From: a virus
DNA length: 30,330 nucleotides
IMG/VR virus record: IMGVR_UViG_3300043570_000258
Span: 1-30,330 of that record
Direction: 5' to 3' (one strand)
Shown here piece after piece: positions 8,625-23,336 of the stretch. How positions within the stretch are numbered: position 1 is the first letter of the stretch; each line of letters begins with the position of its first letter. The notes beneath the pieces were generated by a model. It saw only the letters and a list, made by a program, of their open reading frames with translations, made no database searches and had not been told where the DNA came from. The translations under genes were made by a program, and so were the position numbers.

Positions 8625-10412
8625 TTATCGTGGGTTTATAAATCCTTGATTGGGCATATCAACAGGTCGCTTCGCTACGTTTGTAGGATTGGTCTCAAGT
8701 ACCACGCCCTCCTTCTTTGCCTTGTTTACACTCACCTCTGCGTTGGGATTGCCTACATCGGGAGTTACGCCTTCGCCTTTTGCCAAGTACGTCTTGCGCA
8801 TCCAAAAGTGATGGCACCTTGCACCGCCCTTGTAAAGCCATATTGAATAGGTTGGACTGCCGTTTGCTCCAAAGCCTACTCCGTTAACAGATACATTGTT
8901 TACTACCTGACCACTCATACGCAGGATGTCCTCCTTGCGGTATACCTTGCCTGCTGATACCATCTTCTTGCAGAACTCACGGCTATTGGTCTTTGTAGTT
9001 TCGGGAGCGTAAGCATAACGAACCTTGTACCTCTTGCCTTCTTCAGTTACTCCGTCTTGGCTGCTCTTGGCGTTAGGGAATGCTGATCCTGTTGATGCAA
9101 AAGCGTACTTGCTTAATGCCTGCTCCGCATCGTAGTCAACGGGTCTTTCATCTACAAGCTCCCATTCATCTTCGTTGATGACCTCACCCAATATCTCAAG
9201 CTCTGCGAACATAGCATCAAAATGCTCATCAGTCGGCTCTTGGCTTGACAACTTCACGCCAGTCTCCTCCTCACGGGTCTCCATATCCATAGGAGTCACT
9301 ACGTCTTCCGTAAACTCTAAAGGCTGAAGGGTCTTGAAGTACAAGTTTAGGCTGATGTCATTGTACGCAAGAATCATATCTATGCCGTCAATGATAATCT
9401 CCTGCTTGGGGCGAATAACAAGGTTATCCAAAAGCGTAGAAGCGGTCTTTAGCTCATCAGCGTTATTGCCTAATCCCGAATTGTCCTTGATGCCCAATAG
9501 CATAGGGCTGACAATACGATGCGAGACCATTATCTTCTGCGTTGCCTCTGAACTCAAGAACTGATATTGCTCCGCAGCATCCGATAACTGCACAGGGTCA
9601 ACAGTAGCCGCAAGGTCTTTGTTATCGTTAAACGCAAGGATAAACTTGCCCGAGTTTGAACTACCGCTAAACTTCGTTGCTATCTGCTGCTCTATGCTCC
9701 TGCGCTCCTCCTCGCTTGGTACTCCGTTGTTGAAGTTGATAAGCATTGAAGGCGCAAGGCCGTTCTGAATGTTGTTGATGTGGTAGTTTGCAATCTCCTC
9801 CTCAAGCTCTGCGTAGGGTAGGCCACCTTGATAGTCTACTGGGGAGTAGTAGTAGAATCCTGCTCGGTATGGCTTGATGTAAAGAATCTCCAATCCCTCT
9901 TTGCTTGTGCCAAATGCAGGGATGCGCACAGGTGTCTCTCTCCTGCCTTTTACGTCTTCCCAATCCTTTGCGTAGTAGTAAGCCTCAATCTCTCCGTCTT
10001 CGTTGCACCTTGAGGCTCGTAACGTCTCTACTGGGATGTGCTGCACCTCTACAATCATATTGTGATCTTGTGAGTACACAACCTGCATACTGCATTGCCC
10101 CATCATCACATAGTCCGCTACCACCTTCTGCAAGCAGGCTTTCGTGAACAAGCCACGCATCGCTGCGTACTCGCTCGGCTTCTTGGCAGAGTCAGACGCA
10201 TCCAGTCCTTTACCGAAGGTCATATCCATTAAAGAGTTGAGGATAGCGTTGTTGGTGGGTGAGCCATTGTACCTGTCAATCAGATACCCGAAGTAGTCGT
10301 TGTTGTCTCCGTATTCTACATAGTCCTTCCCTTGCACCTCTTTAACAACAGGTGTGGTGTATGAACTGAAGTTCACAACGTGGACTTTAGATGATGATGT
10401 ACTCATTGTCAT
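8625..10412 (-). CDS. Portal protein with C-terminal extension
   Basis: 595 aa. The N-terminal 360 residues have portal features: DNNDYFGYLIDRYNGSPTNN, an acidic wing, ANYHINNIQNGLAPSMLINF, a long helix, and SHRIVSPMLLGIKDNSGLGNNADELK. The portal would form the dodecameric DNA gate at the capsid vertex. After an acidic stretch, an extra domain (about 435-560) contains SREFCKKMVSAGKVYRKEDI and WLYKGGARCHHFWMRK, a unit I recall fused to other phage portals or minor head proteins. ATGs at 10412 and 10406 are both possible. Its position after the capsid and tail genes is unusual. Confidence 0.85.
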   Translation of the reverse strand: MTMSTSSSKVHVVNFSSYTTPVVKEVQGKDYVEYGDNNDYFGYLIDRYNGSPTNNAILNSLMDMTFGKGLDASDSAKKPSEYAAMRGLFTKACLQKVVADYVMMGQCSMQVVYSQDHNMIVEVQHIPVETLRASRCNEDGEIEAYYYAKDWEDVKGRRETPVRIPAFGTSKEGLEILYIKPYRAGFYYYSPVDYQGGLPYAELEEEIANYHINNIQNGLAPSMLINFNNGVPSEEERRSIEQQIATKFSGSSNSGKFILAFNDNKDLAATVDPVQLSDAAEQYQFLSSEATQKIMVSHRIVSPMLLGIKDNSGLGNNADELKTASTLLDNLVIRPKQEIIIDGIDMILAYNDISLNLYFKTLQPLEFTEDVVTPMDMETREEETGVKLSSQEPTDEHFDAMFAELEILGEVINEDEWELVDERPVDYDAEQALSKYAFASTGSAFPNAKSSQDGVTEEGKRYKVRYAYAPETTKTNSREFCKKMVSAGKVYRKEDILRMSGQVVNNVSVNGVGFGANGSPTYSIWLYKGGARCHHFWMRKTYLAKGEGVTPDVGNPNAEVSVNKAKKEGVVLETNPTNVAKRPVDMPNQGFINPR

Positions 10413-10722
10413 AGCTTGTTTCTTCGGTGTAGACGTTTTGGTTCACCGTAAATTTCTCGTAGTCTGTTTGCGAAGTTACGAATACCCTATCCCGATATAT
10501 TAGATTTCCCGATGCGAATACCTTTAAGCCATAGAACCTATTGTTGACAAGGCTAAACGTGCCTGTAAGGGTCATAAAACCATTAGCAGAGGCAGCCGTA
10601 ACCGCAGGTGTTGCGGTGGTGTTTGTTGATTCATCAATCAGCGCAATCGTAACGCTCGCAGGGAATGTGCGTGGTATGATTACTATGGCTTGTGGCGAAG
10701 CTGATACTTGAAGGATATGCAT
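10387..10722 (-). CDS. Small beta-rich virion protein, 111 aa
   Basis: It has a beta-sandwich look (VIIPRTFPASVTIALIDEST), followed by the segment FSLVNNRFYGLKVFASGNLI and YRDRVFVTSQTDYEKFTVN, a pattern I associate with a small protein next to the portal in Bacteroidota phages. It overlaps the portal start by about 20 nt, so the two are co-translated. A neck or decoration role is plausible but not shown. Confidence 0.7.
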   Translation of the reverse strand: MHILQVSASPQAIVIIPRTFPASVTIALIDESTNTTATPAVTAASANGFMTLTGTFSLVNNRFYGLKVFASGNLIYRDRVFVTSQTDYEKFTVNQNVYTEETSYDNEYIII

Positions 10723-10762
10723 CTTAAATAAATAACCTTTTACTTTGGATTTGTTTGAAAAT

Positions 10763-10785
10763 AGAAAAGGGGCTTACGCCCCCTT
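10763..10785 (-). terminator. Terminator-like hairpin after the 143-aa gene
   Basis: The minus strand forms GGGGC, GTAA, GCCCC, extended by a G-U and two A-U pairs, followed by TTTTCTATTTT. The loop is a GNRA tetraloop. It lies in a 103-bp gap before the portal block and would reduce readthrough into it. Confidence 0.8.
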
Positions 10786-10825
10786 AACTGTTTTATCACT
10801 CTTGCGTTTTGCTAAAGCAAATATG

Positions 10826-11257
10826 TTAAATCTTAATCGGCTTAAAACGACTCAAGATACCTTTAAGCTTTGCAGCAGCATCAATTGCTTCTTTAATGGT
10901 CTGCTCGGCTTTATTAAGATTGAAAGGTTCGGGTATTTTAACACCCAAGTTTTTTTCTGCTTTGGAGATGTCTGCACGAATCGTTTGAATTTGCTTCAAG
11001 TAGATGTCCGAACCATTAAGGTATCGGAATGTAACGTCAGCTTCATTGATTGCATCATTGTATTTGCGCAGTTGGTCTTGAAATTGATTTCCTTCCGCCA
11101 TTGCCACCATAATGGTTCGGCTTGCATCAGCAACCGTTTTCTCCATAATTGGAAGGCGTGACTTTAGGGCATCAGTATTTAATTCAACCTTGATAACTTC
11201 TGCTGAACGTATCTCCTCACCAATCTTGGCAATTTTAGAAAAAATTTGCTTGCTCAT
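10826..11257 (-). CDS. Helical virion-arm protein, 143 aa
   Basis: Nearly all helix, with KVELNTDALKSRLPIMEKTV near the N-terminus and AEQTIKEAIDAAAKLKGIL near the end. It shares with the upstream 152-aa protein an Ile/Phe-Lys opening, a KVEL motif around residues 17-26 and a helical basic C-terminus, so the two may be distant duplicates. The ATG overlaps the upstream TAA (TAATG). A tail chaperone or scaffold-type assembly role would fit the place after the tail tube gene, but I see no defining motif. Confidence 0.7.
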   Translation of the reverse strand: MSKQIFSKIAKIGEEIRSAEVIKVELNTDALKSRLPIMEKTVADASRTIMVAMAEGNQFQDQLRKYNDAINEADVTFRYLNGSDIYLKQIQTIRADISKAEKNLGVKIPEPFNLNKAEQTIKEAIDAAAKLKGILSRFKPIKI

Positions 11258-11715
11258 TAGATTGATTTAATTTCGTTAATAATGCCTTGTATTTTCTTTT
11301 TAGCAGCGTTAAACTTGTCACCATTAGAACTTGCTTGTCCAAATGCAATTGCGCTCTTTCGGTCTAAATCCTCAAGTTCCGCAATCCACTCAATCTTTGC
11401 AGGCTCAAGACCAAATTGCTTTGCTTGTATCTCTGCTTGGCTAATCAACTTGGCACTCCTATCCCAAAGAGTATTCTCACGCCACTCATCGTTTTCAATA
11501 AAGTCGTAAAACTTTTGGGAATGAGCATTCATTTTATTTAAGACCAAATCCAAGTCATCCGCATATTGAGAGAATGAAGCTTCCCAATTACCAAGTCCAT
11601 CAATAAATGACTTCAGTTCGGGCTTGAGTTTAGTAGCCTCATTTACAATTGTTAACTCAACCTTCATCGGCTCTTGAGCCGAGAATTTTGCGAATATATT
11701 GTTAAGTGTAGTCAT
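11257..11715 (-). CDS. Helical virion-arm protein, 152 aa
   Basis: It opens with TLNNIFAKFSAQEPMKVELT and continues as long amphipathic helices (LDLVLNKMNAHSQKFYDFIE; AKLISQAEIQAKQFGLEPAK), ending in KKKIQGIINEIKSI. It follows the tail tube gene after a hairpin and is translationally coupled to the 143-aa protein. The place and helical content would suit tail-assembly chaperones, yet a better chaperone candidate with a frameshift lies at 21.4-22.2 kb. The function is unassigned. Confidence 0.7.
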   Translation of the reverse strand: MTTLNNIFAKFSAQEPMKVELTIVNEATKLKPELKSFIDGLGNWEASFSQYADDLDLVLNKMNAHSQKFYDFIENDEWRENTLWDRSAKLISQAEIQAKQFGLEPAKIEWIAELEDLDRKSAIAFGQASSNGDKFNAAKKKIQGIINEIKSI

Positions 11716-11723
11716 TGTGTAAA

Positions 11724-11746
11724 TATAAGGGGGCTTTCGCCCCCCT
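11724..11746 (-). terminator. Hairpin after the tail tube gene, attenuator or weak terminator
   Basis: The minus strand has GGGGGC, GAAA, GCCCCC (11744-11729), a six-pair G/C stem with a GNRA loop, followed by TTATATTTA rather than a clean T-run. The stem is strong and the tail imperfect, so partial termination or mRNA 3'-end protection seems likely. Confidence 0.7.
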
Positions 11747-11753
11747 AATTCAT

Positions 11754-12302
11754 TTACGAGTTAGAACCCACTACAATCGTTTCAACTGCACCTGCAAGTC
11801 CTGCGAATGGATTGGCAACGGTAGCACCTGCGATGAAGTTAGCAGGAAGTTGCTCCTGTCCCTCCATTGTCAAAGTGTAACCAGATAGGTCACCCATTGC
11901 GGCACCAGTTACAATCGTTCCACCTGTTACTTCGGCTCCGTAATTCAGACCCATCATAAAGGCGTTGCCGTTGTAGTCTTGTACCACAACATAAGGCCTT
12001 CCATAAGCAAGCAACTTCAATTCTTTGTTGTCCTCCTTTGTCAGCTTGGTCAACGTCAAATTCAAAGTTTGCGTGAAGAAGGTAGTACCATTCTCACGGC
12101 TTGAGTTAAAGGTTTGCTCAAAAGAGCTATTGCCTTTTACAAGATATTGGTAAGCAGAGAAAGTACCACTAATGTTGGTAATTTCATCGTTGGTGAGGGT
12201 AACCGTACCCAAGTCACCAAAGTCTACAAAGTACACGGCATAAATGCCACCTACTACGTCTTTACAGGGTACCGCCCTGCCTTTTGTTAAATCACAAGCC
12301 AT
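11754..12302 (-). CDS. Major tail tube protein candidate
   Basis: 182 aa. The motifs GRAVPCKDVVGGIYAVYFVDF near the start, then SSFEQTFNSSRENGTTFFTQ, LLAYGRPYVVVQDYNGNAF and GDLSGYTLTMEGQEQLPA give the beta-rich layout of tail tube proteins, and I recall this pattern from Bacteroidota siphophages. It lies between two hairpins, directly after the major capsid gene, as expected for a protein needed in many copies. The tail tube call is from pattern and position. Confidence 0.7.
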   Translation of the reverse strand: MACDLTKGRAVPCKDVVGGIYAVYFVDFGDLGTVTLTNDEITNISGTFSAYQYLVKGNSSFEQTFNSSRENGTTFFTQTLNLTLTKLTKEDNKELKLLAYGRPYVVVQDYNGNAFMMGLNYGAEVTGGTIVTGAAMGDLSGYTLTMEGQEQLPANFIAGATVANPFAGLAGAVETIVVGSNS

Positions 12303-12324
12303 TGTTTCTTTGTTTTATTAGAAT

Positions 12325-12362
12325 TAAAAAAGAGGGCGAGGACATAGCCCAAGCCCCCTCTT
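12325..12362 (-). terminator. Rho-independent terminator after the major capsid gene
   Basis: The minus strand pairs AAGAGGG (12362-12356) with CCCTCTT (12336-12330), enclosing a G/C-rich inner region that can pair further, followed by six T. It probably limits transcription beyond the capsid gene. Confidence 0.85.
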
Positions 12363-12380
12363 GATTTACATTAACTCGGA

Positions 12381-13307
12381 TTAAGAGTAAAGGACTACGT
12401 CAGCTCCGATTCCGTACTGAACTCCTGCGAAGAAGCGTAGGATCACGCGGATGTTGTCTGACCCGTCAAGGTCAGCCATATCAAGAACGCGAACTTCGTT
12501 ACGCTCGTTCAAGAGACCAGTTCCGAAGAACATATTGCTTGCTTGAGCAGCGACCATCTTGTTAGAAGGTAAGCCGTTACACATTACAACCTTGATGCCA
12601 TCAAAGAACAAGTCTCCTTGACCATACCACATTGTGCCTTTGTTGTCAACACCGTTGGCTCCAAGACCTGAAGTTCCGAACCCACCAAGAGCGCGTACAT
12701 AAGCCTTCGCTACGTTTTGTGGGACAAAGATTTGCAGGTCTTCTTTTCCGTAAAGGGCAGAAGGGATAGCATCAGCAACTTTACCAAGCTCGGTGATTAC
12801 GTTTGCAGCAGTCACGGTGGTAGCGGTTACGTCAATAACGTCAGAATCAGCAGTCATTAATGAAAGGAATCCAGAGAACTCACCTGCGCTTGCAGCAGTT
12901 CCGTTCCAAATGTTCTGCTCAATCTTCTGTGAAGTCTTTGCAGCAACGTGAGCGATAAGGAAGTCAGCAAAAGAAGCAGGGATGCTATCGTAGGCAGAGA
13001 AACCCATTTGACCACCAATCCAAGAATCGTAGTAGTCCTTCTTGCAAAGCTGCAAGTTCACTTGGAATGGCTCAACCTCAAGAACGCGGTCGGTCAAAGT
13101 CAAGGTAGAAGTTGCATCAAAATCACAAGTGGCATCTTTTACGATGTCGTTTGTGTTCACCTTCTGAAGGGTGGTGCGGTAGTTTACGTTTGGAAGAATC
13201 TCGATGAGTCCCTTGTCCAAAGTATTAGCAGAAAGAAGTGCAGCAGAGATATACTTGCTTGCAAACGCTCCTGCGTAGTTTGTTGTGATTGAAGTAGTTG
13301 TAGCCAT
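12381..13307 (-). CDS. Major capsid protein, HK97-type fold
   Basis: 308 aa. The N-terminal arm, then FQVNLQLCKKDYYDSWIGGQMGF, a helix (FADFLIAHVAAKTSQKIEQN) opening the spine, and the A-domain pattern LYGKEDLQIFVPQNVAKAYV with a C-terminal FFAGVQYGIGADVVLYS, are typical of HK97-like major capsids of Bacteroidota phages. The short length fits a capsid without a delta domain fused to it: a separate scaffold-like gene lies directly upstream. A terminator follows, as often seen for abundantly made capsid genes. Confidence 0.85.
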   Translation of the reverse strand: MATTTSITTNYAGAFASKYISAALLSANTLDKGLIEILPNVNYRTTLQKVNTNDIVKDATCDFDATSTLTLTDRVLEVEPFQVNLQLCKKDYYDSWIGGQMGFSAYDSIPASFADFLIAHVAAKTSQKIEQNIWNGTAASAGEFSGFLSLMTADSDVIDVTATTVTAANVITELGKVADAIPSALYGKEDLQIFVPQNVAKAYVRALGGFGTSGLGANGVDNKGTMWYGQGDLFFDGIKVVMCNGLPSNKMVAAQASNMFFGTGLLNERNEVRVLDMADLDGSDNIRVILRFFAGVQYGIGADVVLYS

Positions 13308-13318
13308 TTTTTTATTTA

Positions 13319-13894
13319 TTAACTGTTGATTCGTGCAAGGACTCGGTCAATCGCTCTTTCGGGGCGGTTAGAACTCATCTTTTGGACTTGCTTTGTTTCG
13401 GGATTATGTTTGATGGGCTTCGCAGCAGGTGCGGCAGATAGTTCTGCTTTAACCGCAGCCATCTCCTCCTTCTTGGCGTAGCCGCCCATCTCCTCACGCA
13501 TTCCTTTCATCTCCTCGCGCATCATTGCAATCTCCTCAAGAACTTTCTCGATGATTGCAACAACCGCAGGGGCTTCTTCTACTTCCTCTGCAAGTTCGGT
13601 AGCTGCTTCGGCCTCAACCTCAACTTCTACTTCCTCTGCTTCGGCAGCAGCTTCTTTGATTTCAGCGATTACGCCTTCTTCGGTGATAACGAGTACACGA
13701 CCATCTTCAAGGAGGTGTTCGCCAACAGGAGCAGCAACTCGGTCATCGCCACTAATGACAAATACTTCGTTACCTGCTTCAAATGATTCTGCCTCAAGAA
13801 CGGCTCCGTTCTCAAGTGTCATTTGCTCGAACTTAACCTCACGGATGGAGGATAGCTCGGCAAGGATGCGGTTTAGGATATTGTTTGCTTTCAT
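13319..13894 (-). CDS. Scaffold-like acidic protein upstream of the capsid
   Basis: 191 aa. Residues about 15-80 look like a small beta domain (VLEAESFEAGNEVFVISGDD). Then a Glu/Ala/Val low-complexity stretch (EEVEVEVEAEAATELAEEVE), a coiled coil (EKVLEEIAMMREEMKGMREEM) and a basic C-terminus follow. An acidic middle, a coiled coil and a basic tail, immediately before the capsid gene, form the classic layout of scaffolding proteins, whose basic tail binds the capsid. The prohead protease is encoded two genes upstream and would remove it. Confidence 0.7.
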   Translation of the reverse strand: MKANNILNRILAELSSIREVKFEQMTLENGAVLEAESFEAGNEVFVISGDDRVAAPVGEHLLEDGRVLVITEEGVIAEIKEAAAEAEEVEVEVEAEAATELAEEVEEAPAVVAIIEKVLEEIAMMREEMKGMREEMGGYAKKEEMAAVKAELSAAPAAKPIKHNPETKQVQKMSSNRPERAIDRVLARINS

Positions 13895-13934
13895 ATCTAA
13901 CTAATTAAAGGGGTTTTGATTATTTGTAACATTT

Positions 13935-14159
13935 TTATAGGTCTTGCCATAGAGTATTTGTAGACTCCCATCGGGTGTTGATGGTCTGCCACTCCTCGCC
14001 TCTTATCTTAACGCTTATGCCTTGACCTACTAACGAGCCAATGCCTTGCGCTTGCAATGAGCCATCGCAGCAGTTGGACTTGTAGGTGTTGTCTTTGCAT
14101 AAGCATCCACGCCTACCACCTCTCGGTGACGCAACGGGAAGTTTCATTGGTCTATACAT
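13935..14159 (-). CDS. Cys- and Trp-motif small protein, 74 aa
   Basis: The N-terminus has RRGCLCKDNTYKSNCCDG (C19, C21, C30, C31), a likely metal site or disulphide knot, followed by SLQAQGIG, a motif I recall in small Bacteroidota phage proteins. The C-terminus carries W57, W64 and W71 spaced by six residues, as in the 69-aa and 711-aa proteins. ATG 14159 is chosen because it overlaps the protease stop; an internal Met at codon 5 is possible. It is probably a virion component. Confidence 0.7.
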   Translation of the reverse strand: MYRPMKLPVASPRGGRRGCLCKDNTYKSNCCDGSLQAQGIGSLVGQGISVKIRGEEWQTINTRWESTNTLWQDL

Positions 14160-15087
14160 TGCCAAGTTCTTTTAGTTTGGATTCTGCCCACCTCTTGCCT
14201 GCAAGACCACCCCATAGCAGGAACGATATTGTGCCGCAGGCTTGCGTGTCGTTCTCATCGTAGTATTCTTCGGCTCTTGATAGGTACGAGTACATCCGTG
14301 TAATGGTCTCCACGCTTACAGGCTTGCCCTGTGCGAGCTGCTGCGCCCTTACCTTACCGACAGGCGTTGCACACTTGTTGCCGTTCTTCTCGTTTAGTTC
14401 AATGCCACGCTTGGCGTTGTTCTTTACCGCATCGGGGTAGTCAGCAAACGACTCCATCTCGGTGCGTGTTCCCGACTTCTTACGACCATCCCTTTTTATG
14501 ATAGCCACAATCTGTGCAAGCATCAACGCTGCTTCCTGCTCCTCAAGGTGTGCCATCTCTTGCTTGGCAAGGTTTAACTTGTCAACGAAGTACCCCTCAA
14601 TAGAGAATCCTTTGACCTTCCCTGTCTTGACAAAGTTTGTCCAAATCTCTGGGTTGTTGACTTTCATAGATACCATCCAAGTGCCTACTGGCAAATCAAA
14701 GCCGTACTTCTTGCTCTTGTCGTGGACTTCGTCTTCAATAATCCAAGACTCTACAACCGTGAGGCCGTTGATGCCTACCTCGTGTTCAAGGGTAGCGTTG
14801 TTCTGCTTGCTCTTTTGAAAGAACATCTCGCTTGCTTTTCTGATCGTGGCTTCGCTGAAGTAAACGTAGAACTCCTCTTGCCCCTCTGCTCGGTAGATGG
14901 GCTTGTTGGGTACGAGTGCTGCTCCCATAAGGATGCGCTTCTCATCGCTCTGCGTAGCAAACTCAACCCGTTGTGAGTTGAGGGCTATGAAGTCTTCTTC
15001 AATAGCAGGATATTCTACAAGGGAGATTGCATCAATGCCAGTTAGCAGCATTGATTCATCAAGTATAAGTTCAATTAGTTTCATCAT
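14152..15087 (-). CDS. XkdF-type prohead serine protease with C-terminal extra domain
   Basis: 311 aa. Residues 50-170 match the XkdF-like protease domain (PF14550): MGAALVPNKPIYR, then FYVYFSEATIRKASEMFF, LEHEV (H102), WIIED and GFSIEGYF (S162). H102 and S162 are the likely catalytic pair. It should cleave scaffold and capsid arms during maturation. Residues about 213-308 form a second unit (FADYPDAVKNNAKRGIELNE, CATPVGKVRAQQLAQGKP, LLWGGLAGKRWAESKL), known from many phage proteins but without a clear role. The ATGATG start overlaps the tape-measure stop. Confidence 0.85.
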   Translation of the reverse strand: MMKLIELILDESMLLTGIDAISLVEYPAIEEDFIALNSQRVEFATQSDEKRILMGAALVPNKPIYRAEGQEEFYVYFSEATIRKASEMFFQKSKQNNATLEHEVGINGLTVVESWIIEDEVHDKSKKYGFDLPVGTWMVSMKVNNPEIWTNFVKTGKVKGFSIEGYFVDKLNLAKQEMAHLEEQEAALMLAQIVAIIKRDGRKKSGTRTEMESFADYPDAVKNNAKRGIELNEKNGNKCATPVGKVRAQQLAQGKPVSVETITRMYSYLSRAEEYYDENDTQACGTISFLLWGGLAGKRWAESKLKELGNV

Positions 15088-16958
15088 CCGAATGTTGCGG
15101 TTTTTACTCTTTGGCGTTGTAGTTGTTGTGAGGTCGTTACATCCTGCCCTACGACATAAGCACGGATGGGCTGCTGAAACTGACCTCCTATGCTCTGCGC
15201 AAGTTGGTTAAGGTTAGACTGCCCTACGATGTTAAACTGCGCAGGGGTTGAGGGCTGCGAGAGCGTGTTTGTTATGGCAGGGCTGCTGCCACCGCCACCC
15301 GATTCGGTAGGCACTTGCGTAGCGGTTATCTTTCGTGCGTTTGCAATACCTGTTGCAACAATTCCTGCGGCTCCTATGTAACCAAATATACCGCCCTGCG
15401 CGAGAGCCTTTGTAGCACCCGTATAGGTGTCAATGGCTACCTGCGCTAACGCTATACCTTTGCCCAGTAGCGTATTCTCACCTACGAGTTGGGCGATGCC
15501 GTTTAGTGCGCCTTTGATAGCATCTAACTTTGCCTGCTGCAAGTTCTTCTCCAAAGCCAAACGACCTGCTGCGTTCTCCGCTTCAAATAACTTTAGAGCA
15601 TTCTCTGCCTCTGCTCTTGCTGCGGTTCCTGCCTTTGTAGCCGCTACCTCTTGCTCAAGCAATGCCTTCTTGCGGTTGAAGACATTTTGCGCTATCTCTA
15701 TTTCTTTCTCGGCTCTTGCTACCGCATCATCTATGAGTTCAAGTTGAGCGTTCTGCTGAATCTCAAATATCTCTTGGTCGGTCTCACCGATGCTCTTGGT
15801 GATGTCTGCCTGCTCACGAAGAAGGGAGTTTTGGTTTGCCAAAGCCTCCGACTTCTGACCTTGCAGCCTTTCATCCAAATCAATCAACTCCAACTGCGCT
15901 TGCTTCAGCGCAACAAGATTCTCGTTAGAGTTTACAATTCCTAACTCTGCCTGCGCTGCCGCGACCTTTATATTTAACTGCACCCTCTCAAGCTCCGCTT
16001 GCTCCTCAAGAGATGCAAGGAGTTTGTCGTTTGCCGATTGGCGTTCTGCAAGTGAGACAAGCTCATCATCACGCAACTGCCGAAGTTGCTCTTGGGTGTT
16101 TTGGAACTGAAGCTGAATCTTCTGCCGTTCTACATCAGCAAGTGCCGCTTGCTTGCGTAACGCTACCAATCGCTCTGCATCGCTTACGGCCTTGTCTACA
16201 TCCAACTCCTGCACCGCCTTTGTAACGCTCTTTGCAACTGCTACAACGGTCTTTGCTACCTCGCTTGCTGCTTCTGCAAGGTTATTGATGACCATCTTGC
16301 CACTCTCCAAAAGGTTCTCCCCCGTCTTGGTCAGCTCCTCACGAGTGAGGGCTATCTCCTTGTTTAGTTCTTTGATGCGCGTTGCATCCTTGTCTCCAAA
16401 AAAGGATTTCTCCCAAGCAAGCTGCGTTTCAAGTACCGCTAACTGGATGCCCTGTATGATGCCTACAAATACATTTAGCACTCCGCTAATCAATCCACCG
16501 AGTACCTTCTTCGTTGCATCAAACCCTCCGTTGAGTTTGTTCTGCTCCTCTACTGCCCCAAAGATTGCTTCGGTTATCTTACTGAAGATAATGCTCAAGG
16601 TAGTCATCACCTTGTTGACCGCATCTACTACCTTTTGGTTGCTTTGAAAAGCCTCCGATAGTTTATCTACTACGCCAACAAGAAGTCCAAGACCAAGACC
16701 GCCTTTAAGAAGGTTCCCTAATCCGCTTGCTGCTTTTTTGGCAAGATCAAAGGGTGCGGTTACGACTTTCTTTAGGCCATTGAAAGCCTTGTTGATGATG
16801 CCGCCAGTCTTCTTGGCCTCCTTGCCTACGTCTGCCGCTTCCTTCTGTACGCCACCGAGATTCTTCTCAAGCTCCTCAATCTTTTTATTAAGCGCATCAA
16901 TCTGCTTCTGGAAGCCCGAAGTATCTCCTTCAATACGAATTTCTTCTACTACTGCCAT
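15084..16958 (-). CDS. Tail tape measure protein
   Basis: 624 aa, the second longest protein. It opens with a coiled coil (FQKQIDALNKKIEELEKNL), followed by a hydrophobic Gly-rich segment (GLGNLLKGGLGLGLLVGVV), long heptad helices through about residue 470, and a Gly/Ala hydrophobic region (GGIFGYIGAAGIVATGI) before a Ser/Gln-rich tail. At about 1.5 angstrom per residue, such a protein would specify a tail of roughly 90-95 nm. The ATG overlaps the TAA of the 45-aa gene. Unusually it lies after the tail-tip genes and before the capsid genes. Confidence 0.85.
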   Translation of the reverse strand: MAVVEEIRIEGDTSGFQKQIDALNKKIEELEKNLGGVQKEAADVGKEAKKTGGIINKAFNGLKKVVTAPFDLAKKAASGLGNLLKGGLGLGLLVGVVDKLSEAFQSNQKVVDAVNKVMTTLSIIFSKITEAIFGAVEEQNKLNGGFDATKKVLGGLISGVLNVFVGIIQGIQLAVLETQLAWEKSFFGDKDATRIKELNKEIALTREELTKTGENLLESGKMVINNLAEAASEVAKTVVAVAKSVTKAVQELDVDKAVSDAERLVALRKQAALADVERQKIQLQFQNTQEQLRQLRDDELVSLAERQSANDKLLASLEEQAELERVQLNIKVAAAQAELGIVNSNENLVALKQAQLELIDLDERLQGQKSEALANQNSLLREQADITKSIGETDQEIFEIQQNAQLELIDDAVARAEKEIEIAQNVFNRKKALLEQEVAATKAGTAARAEAENALKLFEAENAAGRLALEKNLQQAKLDAIKGALNGIAQLVGENTLLGKGIALAQVAIDTYTGATKALAQGGIFGYIGAAGIVATGIANARKITATQVPTESGGGGSSPAITNTLSQPSTPAQFNIVGQSNLNQLAQSIGGQFQQPIRAYVVGQDVTTSQQLQRQRVKTATFG

Positions 16959-17095
16959 TATCTACGTTTTAGGAACTCCTTCCAAGTTCGTGGTATTGCG
17001 TTCTTGCCCTTTGCTATGTCAATAGTTTCGGAGACGTTGCGATAGTCACTTGCTTGCAGCAGTTCTATCAAATAACTTAAATAGGTGGGCTTCAT
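16958..17095 (-). CDS. Small protein before the tape measure gene, 45 aa
   Basis: The ATG overlaps the stop of the 711-aa gene (ATGA), and the TAA overlaps the tape measure start (TAATG), so coupling on both sides supports it. The sequence is helical with a basic C-terminus (YLSYLIELLQASDYRN ... RTWKEFLKRR). The place and size resemble small chaperone-like proteins upstream of tape measure genes, but there is no motif to confirm this. Confidence 0.75.
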   Translation of the reverse strand: MKPTYLSYLIELLQASDYRNVSETIDIAKGKNAIPRTWKEFLKRR

Positions 17096-19227
17096 ACTAC
17101 GTTAAGGAGTTCAAATGATGCTTTGCCTGTGGTCATATTAAGACTCACATTGTTGATTAGGTACTTGGTGTTGTTCCAAATGATTGCATTCTGAAGGTTC
17201 AGCGTTATGATCTTACCAATGGGCAACACCGCTTCTACGTTGTACAACCTGCGGCTCTTGGCGTATAGGTCGGTGATGTAGTCGCTATACTCATTAAAGT
17301 AAAGGCTTTGGTTTACCGATTGCAGGTGGTATGGGTCTATGTCTGCGCCAAAGCAAATAGAATGCGAGTCTGCCGCGCTTGAATAGCGGTTAGATGTATT
17401 GGCATACCAAGCGATGTTCACTTGTTCGTGAGTGCCATCTGCATTTACAAATGTTAAAGGATTTGTTTCTTCAAGGTCGTAGTTATCAAAGTAGCCATAA
17501 AACAATACGGGCGCACCCAAGTATGGGTTGAATATACCATCCTCATTTGCTTCGCTTGTGATGCTTTTGTACACGAGTACGTTGGTGAGAACTCCGTTTG
17601 CTTGGTCAGTAAGCCTCTCAAATAACGGGCATTCAAACGGCACCTCAATTAAGAACTCATCGCCATCAAAACTAAAGGTGTTATTCAAATCCCCAAAGCC
17701 TACGTTGTTTGTTTGCAGGTATTGGAAGCCAAGTATTGCTTCGGTCTCTTGGTACTTAAATTCAATCTCCCTGTATAGCGGTGGTCGGTTCACGACATAC
17801 TCCGTGATATCAAGATAGGTCTGATAGTTTTGGTCGGTTCCTGCTGCGTACCAATCCTCCAACGGCTGAAGCAAGAAGCTCGTGGATGTAGTTGGCACAA
17901 TCACCATATTGTACATCTTCAGAATACCTGCCAAGAAGTCCTTTACTTTTATTTCGGGCATTATGTCTTGCACCACTACTTGAAAGGAATAGGTTGCGGA
18001 TGCAGTTTGGTCAACCTCAAATCTTTTTGTGCTTGTGCTTGCATCAATAGCCTCATAATCATCTACTCGGTAATTGAATGAAACAGATGTTGATGGTCTA
18101 ATAAATAATTGCACCGCGTCACCTGCGTTAAATCCAAGACCAATAAACGTATGAGTAACAGAACTTGCTGCGTGAGCGGCATTAGAAATAGAAGAAACAA
18201 GCACCCCGTTAGTAAATAAACCAATTTCATAGGCTGCATTTACATTAGTAATTGTAACTTCAAGTTGATAAAAATCCGTGTCAACTACGTTCCAAGTTTC
18301 AGTAGTTAAATTAAATTCAGTACCGCCTCCTGTTGTTCTGTTAAAGTTTATTAACTGCCAAGCAATGTCATTGCCTCCACCAAATAGATACCCCTCGTAG
18401 CGATGCAGCCATAGCGACAAATCAACAAACGGAGTAGCGGACAAGAATGAGCCTGTAAACGTGATTCCGTATTGGGCTGCTATTGCATTAAGTATAGACT
18501 GAACCTTGAGCGCAGGCTTTAACTCGTAGTAGCGGATTCCGCGCTGACCTGCGCCTCCCGAATGATGAGCGATATTGTTTTCGTTATTAGCAGCACCACC
18601 ACTACCACTCCGATAAAACCAATTCTTTACAGGGCTGCAAAGCGGATAGAACAAGCCTGTGTCATCATTGGTAGTTAGCTTATTAAATACCACAGTATCG
18701 GTGTACTCGTGGTTGAACTCTGCAAAGTCAACGTCATACAGGTAGTCCTCGCCAAACAAATCAACAAGCGTTACCACATCTCCATAGAATGTCAAGGTGT
18801 AGGCATACGGCTCCGTGCCTTTCAACTGCACGTTCTCTACCTCAATCACACCCGTACGGAATGGCAAAGAGTTTATTTCAATTCTTGCTTCTTGTCTAAA
18901 CCTGCCATCAAAAGTATTGACTACACTTGTAGTACTTGCGCCCGAATTCCAAGCCGTGTTAAAGGTATTCCAAGTGATACCAATGCTATTCCATACGGGG
19001 CTGCCGCCAGTCTCCGTAGTGATTAGCGACTCCGTGATATTGGCGTTGTAGTAGTGCTGAAGTATCTCGTTATTGCGAGGGCTTGCAGGAATGGTAAACC
19101 CCTGCGTAAAGTCCGTAAACACCTTTGAGATGTCCTGCACGTTTTGCACCGAGAGGTTGATGCTGATCTCCTCATCATCAAAGATGTCAAGGCGAAAGCC
19201 ATTGACGTAAATATCAACCTTGTTCAT
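17092..19227 (-). CDS. Tail tip / baseplate structural protein, 711 aa
   Basis: The N-terminus (VDIYVNGFRLDIFDDEEISINLS ... FTQGFTIPASPRNNEIL) has the opening I recall for distal-tail proteins of Bacteroidota phages. Residues 79-93 carry W79, W86 and W93. Later parts hold IPEIKVKDFLAGILKMYNM-type and YREIEFKYQETEAILGF-type stretches resembling a tail hub with a beta-rich C-terminal half (LINNVSLNMTTGKASFELL). It is the largest protein here and is coupled to the 409-aa gene upstream by ATGA. A hub or central tail-tip role is likely. No peptidase or glycosidase motif is seen. Confidence 0.7.
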   Translation of the reverse strand: MNKVDIYVNGFRLDIFDDEEISINLSVQNVQDISKVFTDFTQGFTIPASPRNNEILQHYYNANITESLITTETGGSPVWNSIGITWNTFNTAWNSGASTTSVVNTFDGRFRQEARIEINSLPFRTGVIEVENVQLKGTEPYAYTLTFYGDVVTLVDLFGEDYLYDVDFAEFNHEYTDTVVFNKLTTNDDTGLFYPLCSPVKNWFYRSGSGGAANNENNIAHHSGGAGQRGIRYYELKPALKVQSILNAIAAQYGITFTGSFLSATPFVDLSLWLHRYEGYLFGGGNDIAWQLINFNRTTGGGTEFNLTTETWNVVDTDFYQLEVTITNVNAAYEIGLFTNGVLVSSISNAAHAASSVTHTFIGLGFNAGDAVQLFIRPSTSVSFNYRVDDYEAIDASTSTKRFEVDQTASATYSFQVVVQDIMPEIKVKDFLAGILKMYNMVIVPTTSTSFLLQPLEDWYAAGTDQNYQTYLDITEYVVNRPPLYREIEFKYQETEAILGFQYLQTNNVGFGDLNNTFSFDGDEFLIEVPFECPLFERLTDQANGVLTNVLVYKSITSEANEDGIFNPYLGAPVLFYGYFDNYDLEETNPLTFVNADGTHEQVNIAWYANTSNRYSSAADSHSICFGADIDPYHLQSVNQSLYFNEYSDYITDLYAKSRRLYNVEAVLPIGKIITLNLQNAIIWNNTKYLINNVSLNMTTGKASFELLNVV

Positions 19228-20453
19228 CGTACCAAACTGCGCTCATCAAATCCGAAGTCAAAGGACATTGTGTAATTGATAAGTTTTGTGTTCACGCTCT
19301 TTTGGTATTCTATGCTGCCACGATTCGGAACAACACTCACCCAGTTGCTATTGGTATAGACCGCGACATACTCGCTCATCAGAATGTCCTCAATAGTCTC
19401 ATCATAGTTTTGGTCAACGAACCCTGTGTTTAGAGTTAGGGTGTTGCGAGAGTTGACGTTAAAGGATTGATACTTGCCTACCTCCAATGAAGGGGTGGTG
19501 AAGCCATCGTTGTAGATGCTCTTTTCGTAGGAGTCCTGCGTGAAGTTGCCACGCTCATCGCTGCGCTTAAAGAACGTGATAAAGTCAGCAACGCCAAAGC
19601 GGTTGACGAATGCCACCTGCACGGGCGTGTACTTTGCCTCACATTGAACATAGTACCTCACCGTTCCAATCGTGGTATTACTTGCGTTCTTTAGAATCAC
19701 ATCATAGTACTGCCCTATGCCACCATTAGGTTGCTCGCTTGGCTTTATCTCGGTAGGTAAAAAAGAATTGTTCTCAAGGTTTGCAGGGCCGACTCCTGCA
19801 TAGATTACAAGGTTTTGTGAGTTGTTGGTTGCGCGTGTTGGTGGGGCGGTGCTGACGGAACTCACATAAAAATCATCAGAATCACCACTCTGCCAACTGA
19901 TGATAATTTTAGCAAGACCATTATTTACGCTATTGTTAATCGCAAGGGATTCGTAGTTACCGACAAGCACCTGCCGATTGCGATTCGTGGCAAGCACGGC
20001 CTGCGTTACCGCAACAGGGGCTATGTTATCACGGGTTGCCCATCCATCCGTTGTTAGGTATGCGTATGCGGTAGGGGATTCATCGGGGAAGGTTGCGTTG
20101 GCGGGTGCTGCTCCGTTGTTAGAGAATGTCACAGAGCCTTCGGGTACTATCCACAACGCCTCACCCTGTGGGCTTTGCGTGTAGCCTATGTCATTCCATA
20201 CGCTGAAGTCGTGGTAGAACTCCGAGCGCACAAGGTCGCTGATTTCAAAGTTTATGACTTGGTTTATTGAATAGTCTTTGCTCAACGAGTAGTTGAACGA
20301 ACCCGATGCAGCAAGGACACCCGTACGAATACGCAGGTTTAAGTCCATCTCTGTGAGCGTGTCAAGCGCAAGGGCGTTGTTCTTTGCCGTGACAAATTGT
20401 GGGCTTCTTGCCATAGCAAGGCTGCTCGGTGTGGAAAATACAGGTGTACTCAT
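19224..20453 (-). CDS. Virion structural protein, probably distal tail, 409 aa
   Basis: Beta-rich throughout. The N-terminus has DTLTEMDLNLRIRTGVLAAS, a pattern seen in Bacteroidota phage structural proteins. The middle holds an Ig-like or carbohydrate-module-like stretch (NNGLAKIIISWQSGDSDDFY), and the C-terminus contains MSEYVAVYTNSNWVSVVPNR. Its partner is the directly coupled 711-aa protein. A distal tail (Dit-like) role fits, but a baseplate-wing role cannot be ruled out. Confidence 0.65.
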   Translation of the reverse strand: MSTPVFSTPSSLAMARSPQFVTAKNNALALDTLTEMDLNLRIRTGVLAASGSFNYSLSKDYSINQVINFEISDLVRSEFYHDFSVWNDIGYTQSPQGEALWIVPEGSVTFSNNGAAPANATFPDESPTAYAYLTTDGWATRDNIAPVAVTQAVLATNRNRQVLVGNYESLAINNSVNNGLAKIIISWQSGDSDDFYVSSVSTAPPTRATNNSQNLVIYAGVGPANLENNSFLPTEIKPSEQPNGGIGQYYDVILKNASNTTIGTVRYYVQCEAKYTPVQVAFVNRFGVADFITFFKRSDERGNFTQDSYEKSIYNDGFTTPSLEVGKYQSFNVNSRNTLTLNTGFVDQNYDETIEDILMSEYVAVYTNSNWVSVVPNRGSIEYQKSVNTKLINYTMSFDFGFDERSLVR

Positions 20454-20457
20454 TTTT

Positions 20458-20958
20458 TTAGAAACTATTTTTTATTGCGTTAGCAATATCTGGTGGCAGT
20501 TTGTTGAATGCGATATTAAATGGAGTGCTGAAGAATTTAGTGGGGGCAATACCCTGCCTAAATACCGACTCACGTACTGCAAAAGGATTTAGCCCCTTGC
20601 TCTCTGCCCACCGCTTGAAGTGCTTTACCGATGGCTTCTTGCCATCCTTGTAACTGTATGGGCTATTGGGTGCTTTCTGCTTCCATATCTTGCCCTTGTT
20701 GTTGCGCTTGTTAAATGGGCTTGTACTCTTTCTCGTGCCTCCTGCACCCCTTACTCCTTTGTCTTGGTACTCACCATAATCCTCCATTAAGAAAGCCATA
20801 GAGAAATTAGTCCCTTCGTAGGTTATGTTATACCGAAGTGAATTGTAAAGGGTCTTGTCAAAGTTGTGCTTGCCTTTGGTGAGGTTACTCCTCGCCTGTT
20901 GAATGACATATTTGCCAAACTTAATAAGTACCGCAGCAAGCAAATCCTCTCGTGCCAT
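20458..20958 (-). CDS. HK97 gp10-like neck/tail completion protein
   Basis: 166 aa. The ATG at 20958 follows the previous stop after one base. It starts with a helix (EDLLAAVLIKFGKYVIQQAR), then a beta core with DYGEYQDKGVRGAG, and a helical C-terminus (SVKHFKRWAESKGLNPFAVR). The layout matches gp10-type proteins that join the head and the tail or cap the tail. It sits between the tail-terminator candidate and the tail-tip genes. A longer reading from 21069 would run over the upstream gene and is not needed. Confidence 0.65.
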   Translation of the reverse strand: MAREDLLAAVLIKFGKYVIQQARSNLTKGKHNFDKTLYNSLRYNITYEGTNFSMAFLMEDYGEYQDKGVRGAGGTRKSTSPFNKRNNKGKIWKQKAPNSPYSYKDGKKPSVKHFKRWAESKGLNPFAVRESVFRQGIAPTKFFSTPFNIAFNKLPPDIANAIKNSF

Positions 20959-20959
20959 T

Positions 20960-21427
20960 TTAGCAGATGCTGATCTCGGTGTTTGCAAGCAGCACATCAA
21001 ACGTGGCAGTCCACCCTGCAAGCAGGTTCTCGAACCTCTCGCTAAAGGGAACGCAAGAAGCAGTACCATCCAACTGGTAAAGGTCGGTGTACAGAGTACC
21101 CCTGCGCAGTTCTGTCACCACATCGTTGATTACTGCGAGTTGGGTGTTCAAGATGTTTTGCTCGTTGCTCGTGCCGTAGAACGGCTCTGCCTGCAAGCGA
21201 GGGTTCTCTTTGGTCTCATCCACTAAATCCATACAAACAATGCTCACGTTCATCCGTACTATCTGTCCCTCGAATGTTGCTTGGTTGATGATAATATGCG
21301 ACAAAGGGAAGATGGTCTGCTTGTTTAGGTCTATGTCAAAAATATCCCCTGTGGTTACCACATTGACTTGGCTATTGGCCTCAAGGGTGTCTTTTAGCTT
21401 GGTGGTGATGTCGTAGAACTGTCTCAT
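20960..21427 (-). CDS. Tail terminator-like protein, 155 aa
   Basis: The segment TTKLKDTLEANSQVNVVTTGD, then FPLSHIIINQ and VSIVCMDLVDE, and finally helices with LNTQLAVINDVVTELRRG give the alternating beta-alpha layout of tail-terminator or gp9-like proteins. The ATG at 21427 overlaps the stop of the -1-frame extension of the chaperone-like gene (ATGA). That overlap suggests ribosomes that have shifted frame feed directly into this gene. The family call is from pattern and place. Confidence 0.6.
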   Translation of the reverse strand: MRQFYDITTKLKDTLEANSQVNVVTTGDIFDIDLNKQTIFPLSHIIINQATFEGQIVRMNVSIVCMDLVDETKENPRLQAEPFYGTSNEQNILNTQLAVINDVVTELRRGTLYTDLYQLDGTASCVPFSERFENLLAGWTATFDVLLANTEISIC

Positions 21428-21675
21428 TTTTTTATCTTATCTAATTGTTTGCGTTCAACGTCTATGCGCTCTTTTTCAAAAACGAGAAAGGTAAGGGCTT
21501 CGTGAACGCCAAGCCTTCCGACTCGTTCAAATCTTGTAACATCTCCTTGAGCAAGCTGATGGAAGGAAGAATACCATCCCCACTTTCTACCGAATTGGGA
21601 CTCTGCGGAGTACTCGTTTTCTCCTTCTCCAAAGAGGTCAGGGTAGCGAGCAGTAACTCGTTTCCTAAACGCCAA
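21424..21675 (-). CDS. -1 frame extension of the chaperone-like gene (GWY domain)
   Basis: 83 codons in the -1 frame, starting at the T9 tract, with no ATG or GTG anywhere upstream of the conserved-looking part; only a TTG formed by the T-tract itself could start it. The sequence FGRKWGWYSSFHQLAQGDVT, then VHEALTFLVFEKER, is a pattern I recall as a real domain in Bacteroidota phages. Its stop overlaps the next gene by ATGA. It is most simply made as the C-terminal part of a 243-aa frameshift product (160 residues of the 0 frame plus 83). A true tenth T missed by sequencing is the main alternative. Confidence 0.75.
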   Translation of the reverse strand: MAFRKRVTARYPDLFGEGENEYSAESQFGRKWGWYSSFHQLAQGDVTRFERVGRLGVHEALTFLVFEKERIDVERKQLDKIKK

Positions 21676-22154
21676 AAAAAAACCGATGCTCCCATCACAA
21701 CATCCATTGGCGCATCCTTCATTGATGCGGAGTATTTGGATGCTGATTCGTATGGCTCAATAGCATACCGCTTGCCTATGCGCTCGGTGATGGGTCGGTA
21801 GAGGACTGCCATCGTTTTGTGCAGCTCTTGTATGTCACCCATATAATTATCCAAGTCCACATACTCCCCAAAGGTGATGTCCTCAAGGTTAGGGATGAAC
21901 CCGTAGGTTTCTCCACCCATCGTGAACTCCGTCTTTAGGTTTGGCTTCTCGCTGAACATCGTATTGATGTGGCGCATCACATTGGCTACGCTTGCGAACT
22001 TTACGTTGGGCAGTTCTGCCAGAGGCACTCCGCAGAATATCTCAAGCATCTTGTGGGTCAAGAACTCCTCATCGCCCTCAAGCCTCGCAAAGCGTTGGTA
22101 TTGGTCAAGCGTTATCTCCGACAGGGAGGTGGGTACAATTACCTTTAGTTCCAT
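21462..22154 (-). CDS. Tail-assembly-chaperone-like protein (0 frame), 230 aa
   Basis: It starts MELKVIVPTSLSEITLDQYQ and continues with KMLEIFCGVPLAELPNVKFA, GGETYGFIPNLEDITFGEYVDL and VLYRPITERIG, a pattern I recall from Bacteroidota phages next to tail genes. At codons 158-161 it crosses nine T (21682-21674, GTT TTT TTT TGG). Beyond that the 0 frame still looks coding (LGNELLLATLTSLEKE; GDGILPSISLLKEMLQDLNE). A short and a frameshifted long product, as in lambda G/GT chaperones, would explain both frames. The family name is inferred from this layout and from position. Confidence 0.7.
   Translation of the reverse strand: MELKVIVPTSLSEITLDQYQRFARLEGDEEFLTHKMLEIFCGVPLAELPNVKFASVANVMRHINTMFSEKPNLKTEFTMGGETYGFIPNLEDITFGEYVDLDNYMGDIQELHKTMAVLYRPITERIGKRYAIEPYESASKYSASMKDAPMDVVMGASVFFWRLGNELLLATLTSLEKEKTSTPQSPNSVESGDGILPSISLLKEMLQDLNESEGLAFTKPLPFSFLKKSA
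21674..21682 (-). promoter_or_regulatory. T9 slippery tract, probable -1 frameshift site
   Basis: Nine consecutive T on the minus strand, preceded by GG and followed by GGCG. In the 0 frame the reading is GTT TTT TTT TGG. A slip back by one base on T-TTT-TTT re-pairs perfectly and continues as TTG GCG TTT into the GWY frame. Transcriptional slippage on the homopolymer would give the same protein. Confidence 0.7.
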
Positions 22155-22175
22155 TATTAAAATAACCTTTTAGTT

Positions 22176-23336
22176 TTAGCGTATGGCATACCTGCCAAAG
22201 TTAGGTCTGCTCAACTTGTTATACGTTGCGTACCGCAGCGCATCTATGGCGTGGTTGAATGCATCAATCGGTTTGTTGAGCAGGTTGCCGTTCTTATCTT
22301 CTACCCATTTGTAGTTCTGAAGTTCCTTGATTAGGTTGCTGCTTCGTGGGGTTACGAATAGCTTGTGCCGCTTCAGCACGTCAATGCCCACTATGACGCT
22401 ATCTGCGCCCTTCTGCGTGGGTTTTACGTTCCATCCCATACGATGCAACTCCTCAATAGATTTGGGTTCAGCAGAGTCAGCATATATCTCTGCCCTCCTG
22501 TCAAGGCCAAGAGAGTTTAGCACGTTGCTGATGTCGGGGTTGGTCATCCCCGTGCGGTAGATAAGTTCATCCACATAAAGATTGTCCCCCGACTTATACA
22601 CCGCCACAAGTGCGGTGGGGTCGTTGGTGTAGCCGAAGTCCATTCCGTGACATAAGAGCGTGGCATCCGTTGGTATCTCGGCTTGGCCGTATTGGAAGAT
22701 GGTGGCTCTGCTCATCCCACGTTCTCCGAGTCCGTAGATTCTCCAGTAGTCATTGTCCGTATGTTGCAGCCTCTCTATCTCCTCTACGATTGAGGCATCC
22801 AAGAACGGATTATCAAGGTAGGTTGACTGGATGTAGGTGACATCATCCCTTGTGAGTAGTTTATCGTAAATCCAATGGAACGCATCAGAGGGGTTGTAGT
22901 CAACCCATATCTTGCCTGTGGTACGAATCAAGAGCTGAAAGAAATCCTCCCAAGTCAGTTCGTTTGCCTCGTTGCAGAATAGGTAGTCACGTCTTGCTCC
23001 CCGTTTCTTTTGCGGTTGGTCAAGGCTGATGAACTCAAAGAGGTTGCCATTCAACTCGTAGGTGTAATCGCTCTTGTTGTGCCGTGCCTCATCGTAGAGA
23101 CCGTTGGCATTTAGGATTTCAAAGAAGTCACGATAGGCCGTCATCTTCAGAGACGGCAGCGACTTACGCACGATAGAATACACCTTACCCCTATCCTCCA
23201 TCGCCATCACGATGAGCATCTGCAAAAGCGAGTAGGTCTTACCAGAACGGCTGCCGCCTTGATTGACTACTATCCGAGTTTTAGCGGTGTAGTTCTTCTC
23301 AAAGAGTTCGCTACTCTTTAGGTTTAGTTCGGACAA
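22176..23336 (-). CDS. terL: Terminase large subunit (PBSX/Terminase_3 type)
   Basis: 386 aa. The ATPase has Walker A GGSRSGKT (27-34) and a Walker B-like DYLFCNEA (117-124). The RNase H-like nuclease has D233 (MDFGYTND), D287 (YADSAEP) and D365 (NHAIDALRYA). The protein translocates DNA into the prohead and cuts it at the end of packaging. The start is TTG at 23336, overlapping the small subunit by 26 nt; the first ATG lies beyond Walker A and cannot be the start. The adjacent HNH gene suggests an HK97-like packaging set. Confidence 0.95.
   Translation of the reverse strand: MSELNLKSSELFEKNYTAKTRIVVNQGGSRSGKTYSLLQMLIVMAMEDRGKVYSIVRKSLPSLKMTAYRDFFEILNANGLYDEARHNKSDYTYELNGNLFEFISLDQPQKKRGARRDYLFCNEANELTWEDFFQLLIRTTGKIWVDYNPSDAFHWIYDKLLTRDDVTYIQSTYLDNPFLDASIVEEIERLQHTDNDYWRIYGLGERGMSRATIFQYGQAEIPTDATLLCHGMDFGYTNDPTALVAVYKSGDNLYVDELIYRTGMTNPDISNVLNSLGLDRRAEIYADSAEPKSIEELHRMGWNVKPTQKGADSVIVGIDVLKRHKLFVTPRSSNLIKELQNYKWVEDKNGNLLNKPIDAFNHAIDALRYATYNKLSRPNFGRYAIR

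Follow-up and report, generated by a model that had tools for sequence, protein, structure and literature searches.

Does the gene that crosses a run of nine T in this virus specify one protein or two and, if two, by what device is the second one reached? In the window, that is, the whole stretch of 30,330 nucleotides analysed here, the initial annotation had described a 230-aa frame crossing nine T, and the tract is indeed exactly T9, the longest T run on the minus strand of the window and the only one there of at least nine. The 0-frame codons around it are TCG GTT TTT TTT TGG CGT (minus strand). The locus comprises the following features.

21462-22154, minus strand: 0-frame ORF of 230 aa, with an N-terminal domain (residues 1-158) and an alternative C-terminal tail (residues 162-230); match to phrog_32199, E=2.3e-21.
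21674-21682, minus strand: T9 run, from the sequence; A9 when read on the plus strand.
21675-21681, minus strand: in-phase T_TTT_TTT heptamer within the T9, from the sequence; phase identical in all poly-T homologues.
21424-21681, minus strand: -1-frame C-terminal domain of 85 aa (FFLxFRxR...KWGWY...), from sequence and conservation; AlphaFold pLDDT 90.2, all helical.
21462-21673, minus strand: putative dual-coding overlap of the 0-frame tail and the -1 domain, from reduced synonymous change and an unexpectedly long open 0 frame.
21424-21427, minus strand: ATGA stop/start coupling of the -1 frame to the next gene, from the sequence; ATGA in 128 of 222 distinct homologues.

Between stop codons on the minus strand of the window, the -1 frame extends from 21756 to 21424, with its TGA at 21424-21426, and the GWY-type domain reported in it proves to be the conserved KWGWY domain listed above. 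By computed translation, a -1 shift at the T9 gives a 243-aa fusion ending in this domain, and the two frames overlap for about 210 bp after the run. The coupling to the next gene, which had also been pointed out, takes the form of an overlap of the TGA with the ATG of that gene. No hairpin is predicted on the coding strand at the T9, and we therefore discarded the run as a transcription terminator.

Both parts of the gene were found by tblastn in the Nonlabens phages P12024L and P12024S, for which GenBank lists two separate hypothetical proteins, gp40 and gp41. These are direct homologues, with the T9 and both domains, although their 0-frame tail is shorter than that of the window. The gp41 of these phages (L001 12001-12695; L002 4001-4695), a 55-aa gene of its own in the annotation, corresponds to the 3' part of the -1 domain, the fusion having been missed in GenBank; in many other records too, the C domain is probably truncated or missing in the annotation. 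The annotation of gp41 amounts to regarding the -1 domain as an independent gene, served by its own start or by re-initiation, and the separate 55-aa ORF in GenBank does begin at the 0-frame stop. The frame itself argues against this. As the initial annotation had stated, neither ATG nor GTG lies in it ahead of the run in the window, where the sole nominal start is a TTG inside the run; 210 of 222 distinct homologues likewise have neither there, and across the homologues the first ATG or GTG inside the domain mostly falls past codon 50 or is absent, while conservation of the -1 product starts at the run, with FFLxFRxR. We consider an independent gene very improbable.

In profile searches, the sole match of the N part is phrog_32199, of unknown function, a profile that 82 of 82 family members match; the -1 C part has zero matches in Pfam, and homologues of the recoded gene were found in neither Pfam nor NCBIfam. 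Scans of viral contigs retrieved hundreds of Flavobacteria-type phage relatives; six loci lie in assembled genomes of Flavobacteriaceae or other Bacteroidota. The arrangement of an N domain followed by a C domain in the -1 frame recurs in homologues as distant as 26-30% identity, and the -1 relation holds in 427 of 428 distinct N-to-C sequences, which makes it more than a chance arrangement. The apparent in-frame exception, L358, was rejected, as its N frame is broken far ahead of the run. Of the phages with the nearest terminases, two Bacteroidales phages were examined, Parabacteroides PM21P1 and Phocaeicola BV57P1, and in neither is the gene after that for the terminase large subunit (TerL) a recognisable homologue.

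The possibility that the 210 bp after the run encode two proteins at once, raised from the window alone, is borne out by the pattern of synonymous change together with the length of the open frame. Over 500 pairs of sequences, change in the N-only part is most frequent at third positions of the 0 frame (0.285), whereas after the run it is most frequent at third positions of the -1 frame (0.167), from which we infer that the -1 frame is translated. A comparison of synonymous codon change by region in 87 disjoint pairs gave fractions of 0.41 (N-only part), 0.23 (overlap), and 0.30 (-1-only part). The overlap lies below the N part in 85 of the 87; its contrast with the -1-only tail is weaker (Fisher p=0.001, with codons that are not fully independent). 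In addition, 58 codons pass before the 0 frame closes, against a mean of 13.6 when codons of the -1 frame are randomly swapped for synonyms, and a 0 frame of such unexpected length (p<0.05) is found in 87% of 84 representatives, the window among them with p=0.0025. The reduced synonymous change and the unexpectedly long open frame thus show that the 0-frame tail is also under selection, and homologues conserve both frames rather than a single one. Selection on this tail appears, from the sequences, weaker than on the -1 domain; part of its conservation is a by-product, because its GxG motif is forced by the WGW of the -1 frame, and its function is probably flexible, given a length that ranges from 16 to 83 codons across the family. 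On these sequence patterns, both proteins are likely to be produced, and we have very high confidence that the locus is a genuine case of conserved, programmed -1 recoding combined with dual coding.

Homopolymers are mutable and error-prone in sequencing, and two further readings follow from these properties. In one, a sequencing or assembly error has split a single continuous gene; however, hundreds of independent assemblies, together with isolated phages and host-genome contigs, agree on the run length, and the synonymous pattern shows use of both frames, so that we regard this reading, the least probable of the explanations weighed here, as refuted. In the other, replication slippage alters the run length and toggles the fusion between individuals, a phase variation that we also regard as highly improbable, since frame-fusing length variants number zero among the 428 distinct sequences and the longer runs derive from substitution or an added codon instead of a frame-changing insertion.

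Homologues with the T-tract and both frames, which the initial annotation had named as the supporting observation, are the rule. The run is T9 in 340 of the 428 distinct sequences, T10 in 73, T12 in one, and absent in 14, that is, at least nine T in 414, although these counts are not prevalences, some scans having been chosen for particular variants. Sequences added later with search patterns lying wholly in the N domain comprised 38 T9 and three T10. Neither T7 nor T8 occurs among the 428, nor does any T10 that fuses the frames: T10 members keep the -1 relation, because their run arose by base substitution or by an extra codon. Both refuting observations named in the initial annotation, a run of ten or seven T that makes one continuous frame and conservation of one frame alone, thus fail. 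In L306, L307, L314, and similar loci, an extra Phe codon extends the run to T10, a C comes next, and two in-phase heptamers overlap.

What, then, does the recoded gene do? Frameshifting in tail G/GT genes is a textbook conserved recoding event of tailed phages, and to our knowledge it has always been attributed to the ribosome. The gene lies among the following neighbours, listed in the order in which they are read.

22176-23336, minus strand: terminase large subunit (TerL), upstream neighbour; Pfam Terminase_3, 3.6e-26.
20960-21427, minus strand: 155-aa gene, downstream, probably tail-terminator-like; phrog_30964.
20458-20961, minus strand: putative tail-completion-like gene, HK97 gp10-like, with MARED as its likely start; phrog_29822.
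15084-16958, minus strand: putative tape-measure-like ORF of 624 aa, with a weak match to a virion structural protein, phrog_21537 (E=1.5e-6).

The 155-aa gene comes directly after the recoded gene in 78 of the 82 relatives that could be tested; the tail-completion-like gene is close by in 71 of 76, while TerL stands immediately ahead in just 29 of 82. The tape-measure-like ORF lies about 4.5 kb downstream, and in the window the recoded gene does not occupy the place between major tail protein and tape measure genes that is characteristic of G/GT. From 8625 to 23336 on the minus strand, the window holds TerL, the recoded gene, tail genes, protease, capsid, and portal (phrog_33693), with the tail genes sitting between terminase and head genes. 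The gap upstream of the recoded gene is 21 bases in the window. In six relatives (L223, L224, L230, L235, L258, and L266), an intrinsic-terminator-like hairpin with T9 is followed by the promoter-like stretch TTACGTTATATA, about 44-62 bases upstream of the start of the N gene; in such relatives, the recoded gene may head its own transcript.

Structure prediction, with the domains folded apart, adds to the confident all-helical C domain a model of the 230-aa ORF with a mean pLDDT of 84.6, in which the N domain is confident, the 0-frame tail is mostly of low confidence, and the last helix of the N domain (residues 150-181) spans the shift site. A PDB fold search returned no solved structure resembling the N or the C domain, and Pfam, NCBIfam, and PDB sequence and fold searches gave no meaningful match. 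Foldseek against viral models retrieved uncharacterised relatives and a weak match (E=0.03) to a protein named tail assembly chaperone. A tail-chaperone role is suggested by architecture and location. As in lambda G/GT-type tail chaperones (PMC5009743), two products share their N part, the fusion arises by -1 recoding, the gene stands among tail genes, and a distinct domain occupies the downstream frame. On the other hand, no sequence or solved-structure homology to those proteins is detectable, a T run takes the place of the typical heptamers, the gene is found beside terminase and tail-terminator-like genes and not directly before the tape measure, and its 0-frame tail, of up to 83 codons, appears to be dual-coding. 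The resemblance to G/GT put forward by the initial annotation is thus apt as a way of working, and we think it probable, by analogy, that the gene works in that manner; membership of the G/GT family is not claimed, as tape-measure adjacency and homology were not found.

The mechanism of the shift is a separate matter. Every sequence of the family has an in-phase heptamer, either T_TTT_TTT or A_AAT_TTT, and programmed -1 ribosomal frameshifting, with tRNA-Phe in the P and A sites slipping on T_TTT_TTT, has to be weighed against slippage of the RNA polymerase. T_TTT_TTT is itself a good ribosomal heptamer, H_HH.U_UU.Y motifs, including U_UUU_UUC, are efficient in E. coli (PMC4066793), and the known tail G/GT frameshifts are ribosomal (PMC5009743); the additional Ts would then be an optimisation or a side effect of the flanking residues. 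The flanking residues, however, vary. In the 0 frame, V, L, I, F, or S precedes the two Phe and Y, W, S, F, L, or C follows them, yet T is kept on both sides; in L205, there is no T to the left of the heptamer and an additional one to its right, so that the total is still nine. The third base is invariant at the first of the two Phe codons and at the codon that immediately precedes them, in contrast to other conserved Phe columns, where it is mixed (majority 0.63-0.77), and Phe codons in N domains divide into 998 TTT and 710 TTC.

The last base of the heptamer offers a sharper comparison. A T-to-C change there turns TTT into TTC (Phe) in the 0 frame and TTR into CTR (Leu) in the -1 frame, and is therefore silent in both, while the canonical heptamer is kept as U_UUU_UUC within the interrupted run TTTTTTTCT. 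Among the 159 sequences in which the change is doubly silent, it was seen in none, compared with 17 of 40 other overlap sites with a doubly silent T/C change that differed between paired sequences. A scan of all IMG/VR for T7-CT gave 68 loci with the N domain; at every junction that was readable, T10 stands before the C, which reflects an added codon and not an interrupted run. As U_UUU_UUC is efficient, a purely ribosomal site should tolerate the C, bearing in mind that the heptamer efficiencies are those of E. coli and not of Flavobacteria. That this equally canonical change never replaces the run, together with the missing T7 and T8, suggests a need for at least nine uninterrupted T, as in RNA-polymerase slippage, and such strictness of run length points to a transcriptional event. 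In bacteria, slippage on runs of nine A or T is well documented (PMC5009743), and for Baranov and colleagues a 9A/9T run that homologues conserve speaks strongly for purposeful transcriptional slippage (PMC1088944). Long runs are depleted in 458 other phage genes (T8, three observed and 17.1 expected; T9 or longer, zero and 3.2; A9 or longer, eight and 25), a depletion that could stem from mutation and not from slippage. No stimulatory RNA structure was detected in windows starting within 20 bases downstream of the run (mean z 0.0-0.2, 84 representatives), which counts against the ribosomal reading and is compatible with slippage, although some ribosomal sites also have none. Weighing these observations, we lean towards polymerase slippage as the principal mechanism in members with a poly-T run.

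The 14 distinct sequences in which the run is absent bear on both mechanisms. In them, it is replaced by A AAT TTT AT[AT] TAC, which puts A_AAT_TTT at the position of the run with the phase unchanged, and the seven members tested form one clade (support 100/100) that is nested among T9 lineages under midpoint rooting, with deeper branching weakly supported. Downstream structure was not detected in this clade either. As A_AAT_TTT cannot serve as a polymerase-slippage run, the clade is best read as recoding by ribosomal tandem slippage, and it is a strong argument that -1 recoding is under selection at precisely this position. It also indicates that the ribosome can probably serve at this site, owing to which an entirely ribosomal family, the canonical heptamer being already at the same place in a nested clade, stays alive as a tentative alternative, clearly less probable than polymerase slippage.

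All together, these observations lead us to propose a model in which one start would give two products. Normal decoding would yield the 230-aa, G-like protein. In a fraction of cases, a host-type RNA polymerase would slip at the T9 and add an extra U, and a ribosome on the resulting U10 transcript would continue in the -1 frame to produce the 243-aa, GT-like fusion. By analogy with lambda gpG/gpGT, the short form may serve to coat the tape-measure protein or to hold it, and the rare fusion may recruit tail-tube subunits. The DNA past the run would be read in both frames, both under selection, and one nested clade would have swapped the run for a site workable only by ribosomal tandem slippage. 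For the proposal as a whole, i.e., a Flavobacteria-phage family with programmed polymerase slippage at nine or more T and a long dual-coded C-terminus, one clade of which evolved to ribosomal A_AAT_TTT, our confidence is evenly poised.

Comparable elements exist in other systems. Transcriptional slippage at 9A/9T in Shigella mxiE/spa13 and in IS elements (PMC5009743, PMC1088944) likewise involves nine identical bases, a run length conserved in homologues, and the joining of two overlapping frames, but here the gene belongs to a phage tail module, its double coding is long, and one clade has exchanged the run for a ribosomal heptamer. Homologues of dnaX employ either transcriptional slippage or a ribosomal frameshift (PMC5009743; Larsen 2000 as cited in PMC3711429), so that there, too, homologous sites seem to use alternative mechanisms; the recoded dnaX product is truncated, whereas here a domain is added. 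If the model is true, this would be a homologous set in which the fusion is set by polymerase slippage and in which a natural swap to a ribosomal heptamer has occurred, implying that what selection maintains is the ratio of the products rather than the mechanism. The overlap would be among the longer stretches of dual coding within a phage structural module, and P12024L/S would provide a tractable test system, with hundreds of natural variants of the site.

Beyond the family as counted here, gp10 of Flavobacterium phage 6H looks like a remote relative of the N domain (Foldseek 3.6e-5; hhalign 3.8e-5). It was left out of the counts because its C part cannot be aligned to that of the window and its -1 frame stops early. 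In this phage (L304 10040-10927), gp10 and an unannotated downstream frame jointly match one 293-aa PHROG, phrog_25418; this is apparently either a remote relative with single-frame kin or another recoding or sequencing frameshift. Elsewhere in the window, between 23899 and 29188, PAPS-reductase-like, small methyltransferase-like, and cytosine-methyltransferase-like ORFs are present, which, judged by eye, look auxiliary.
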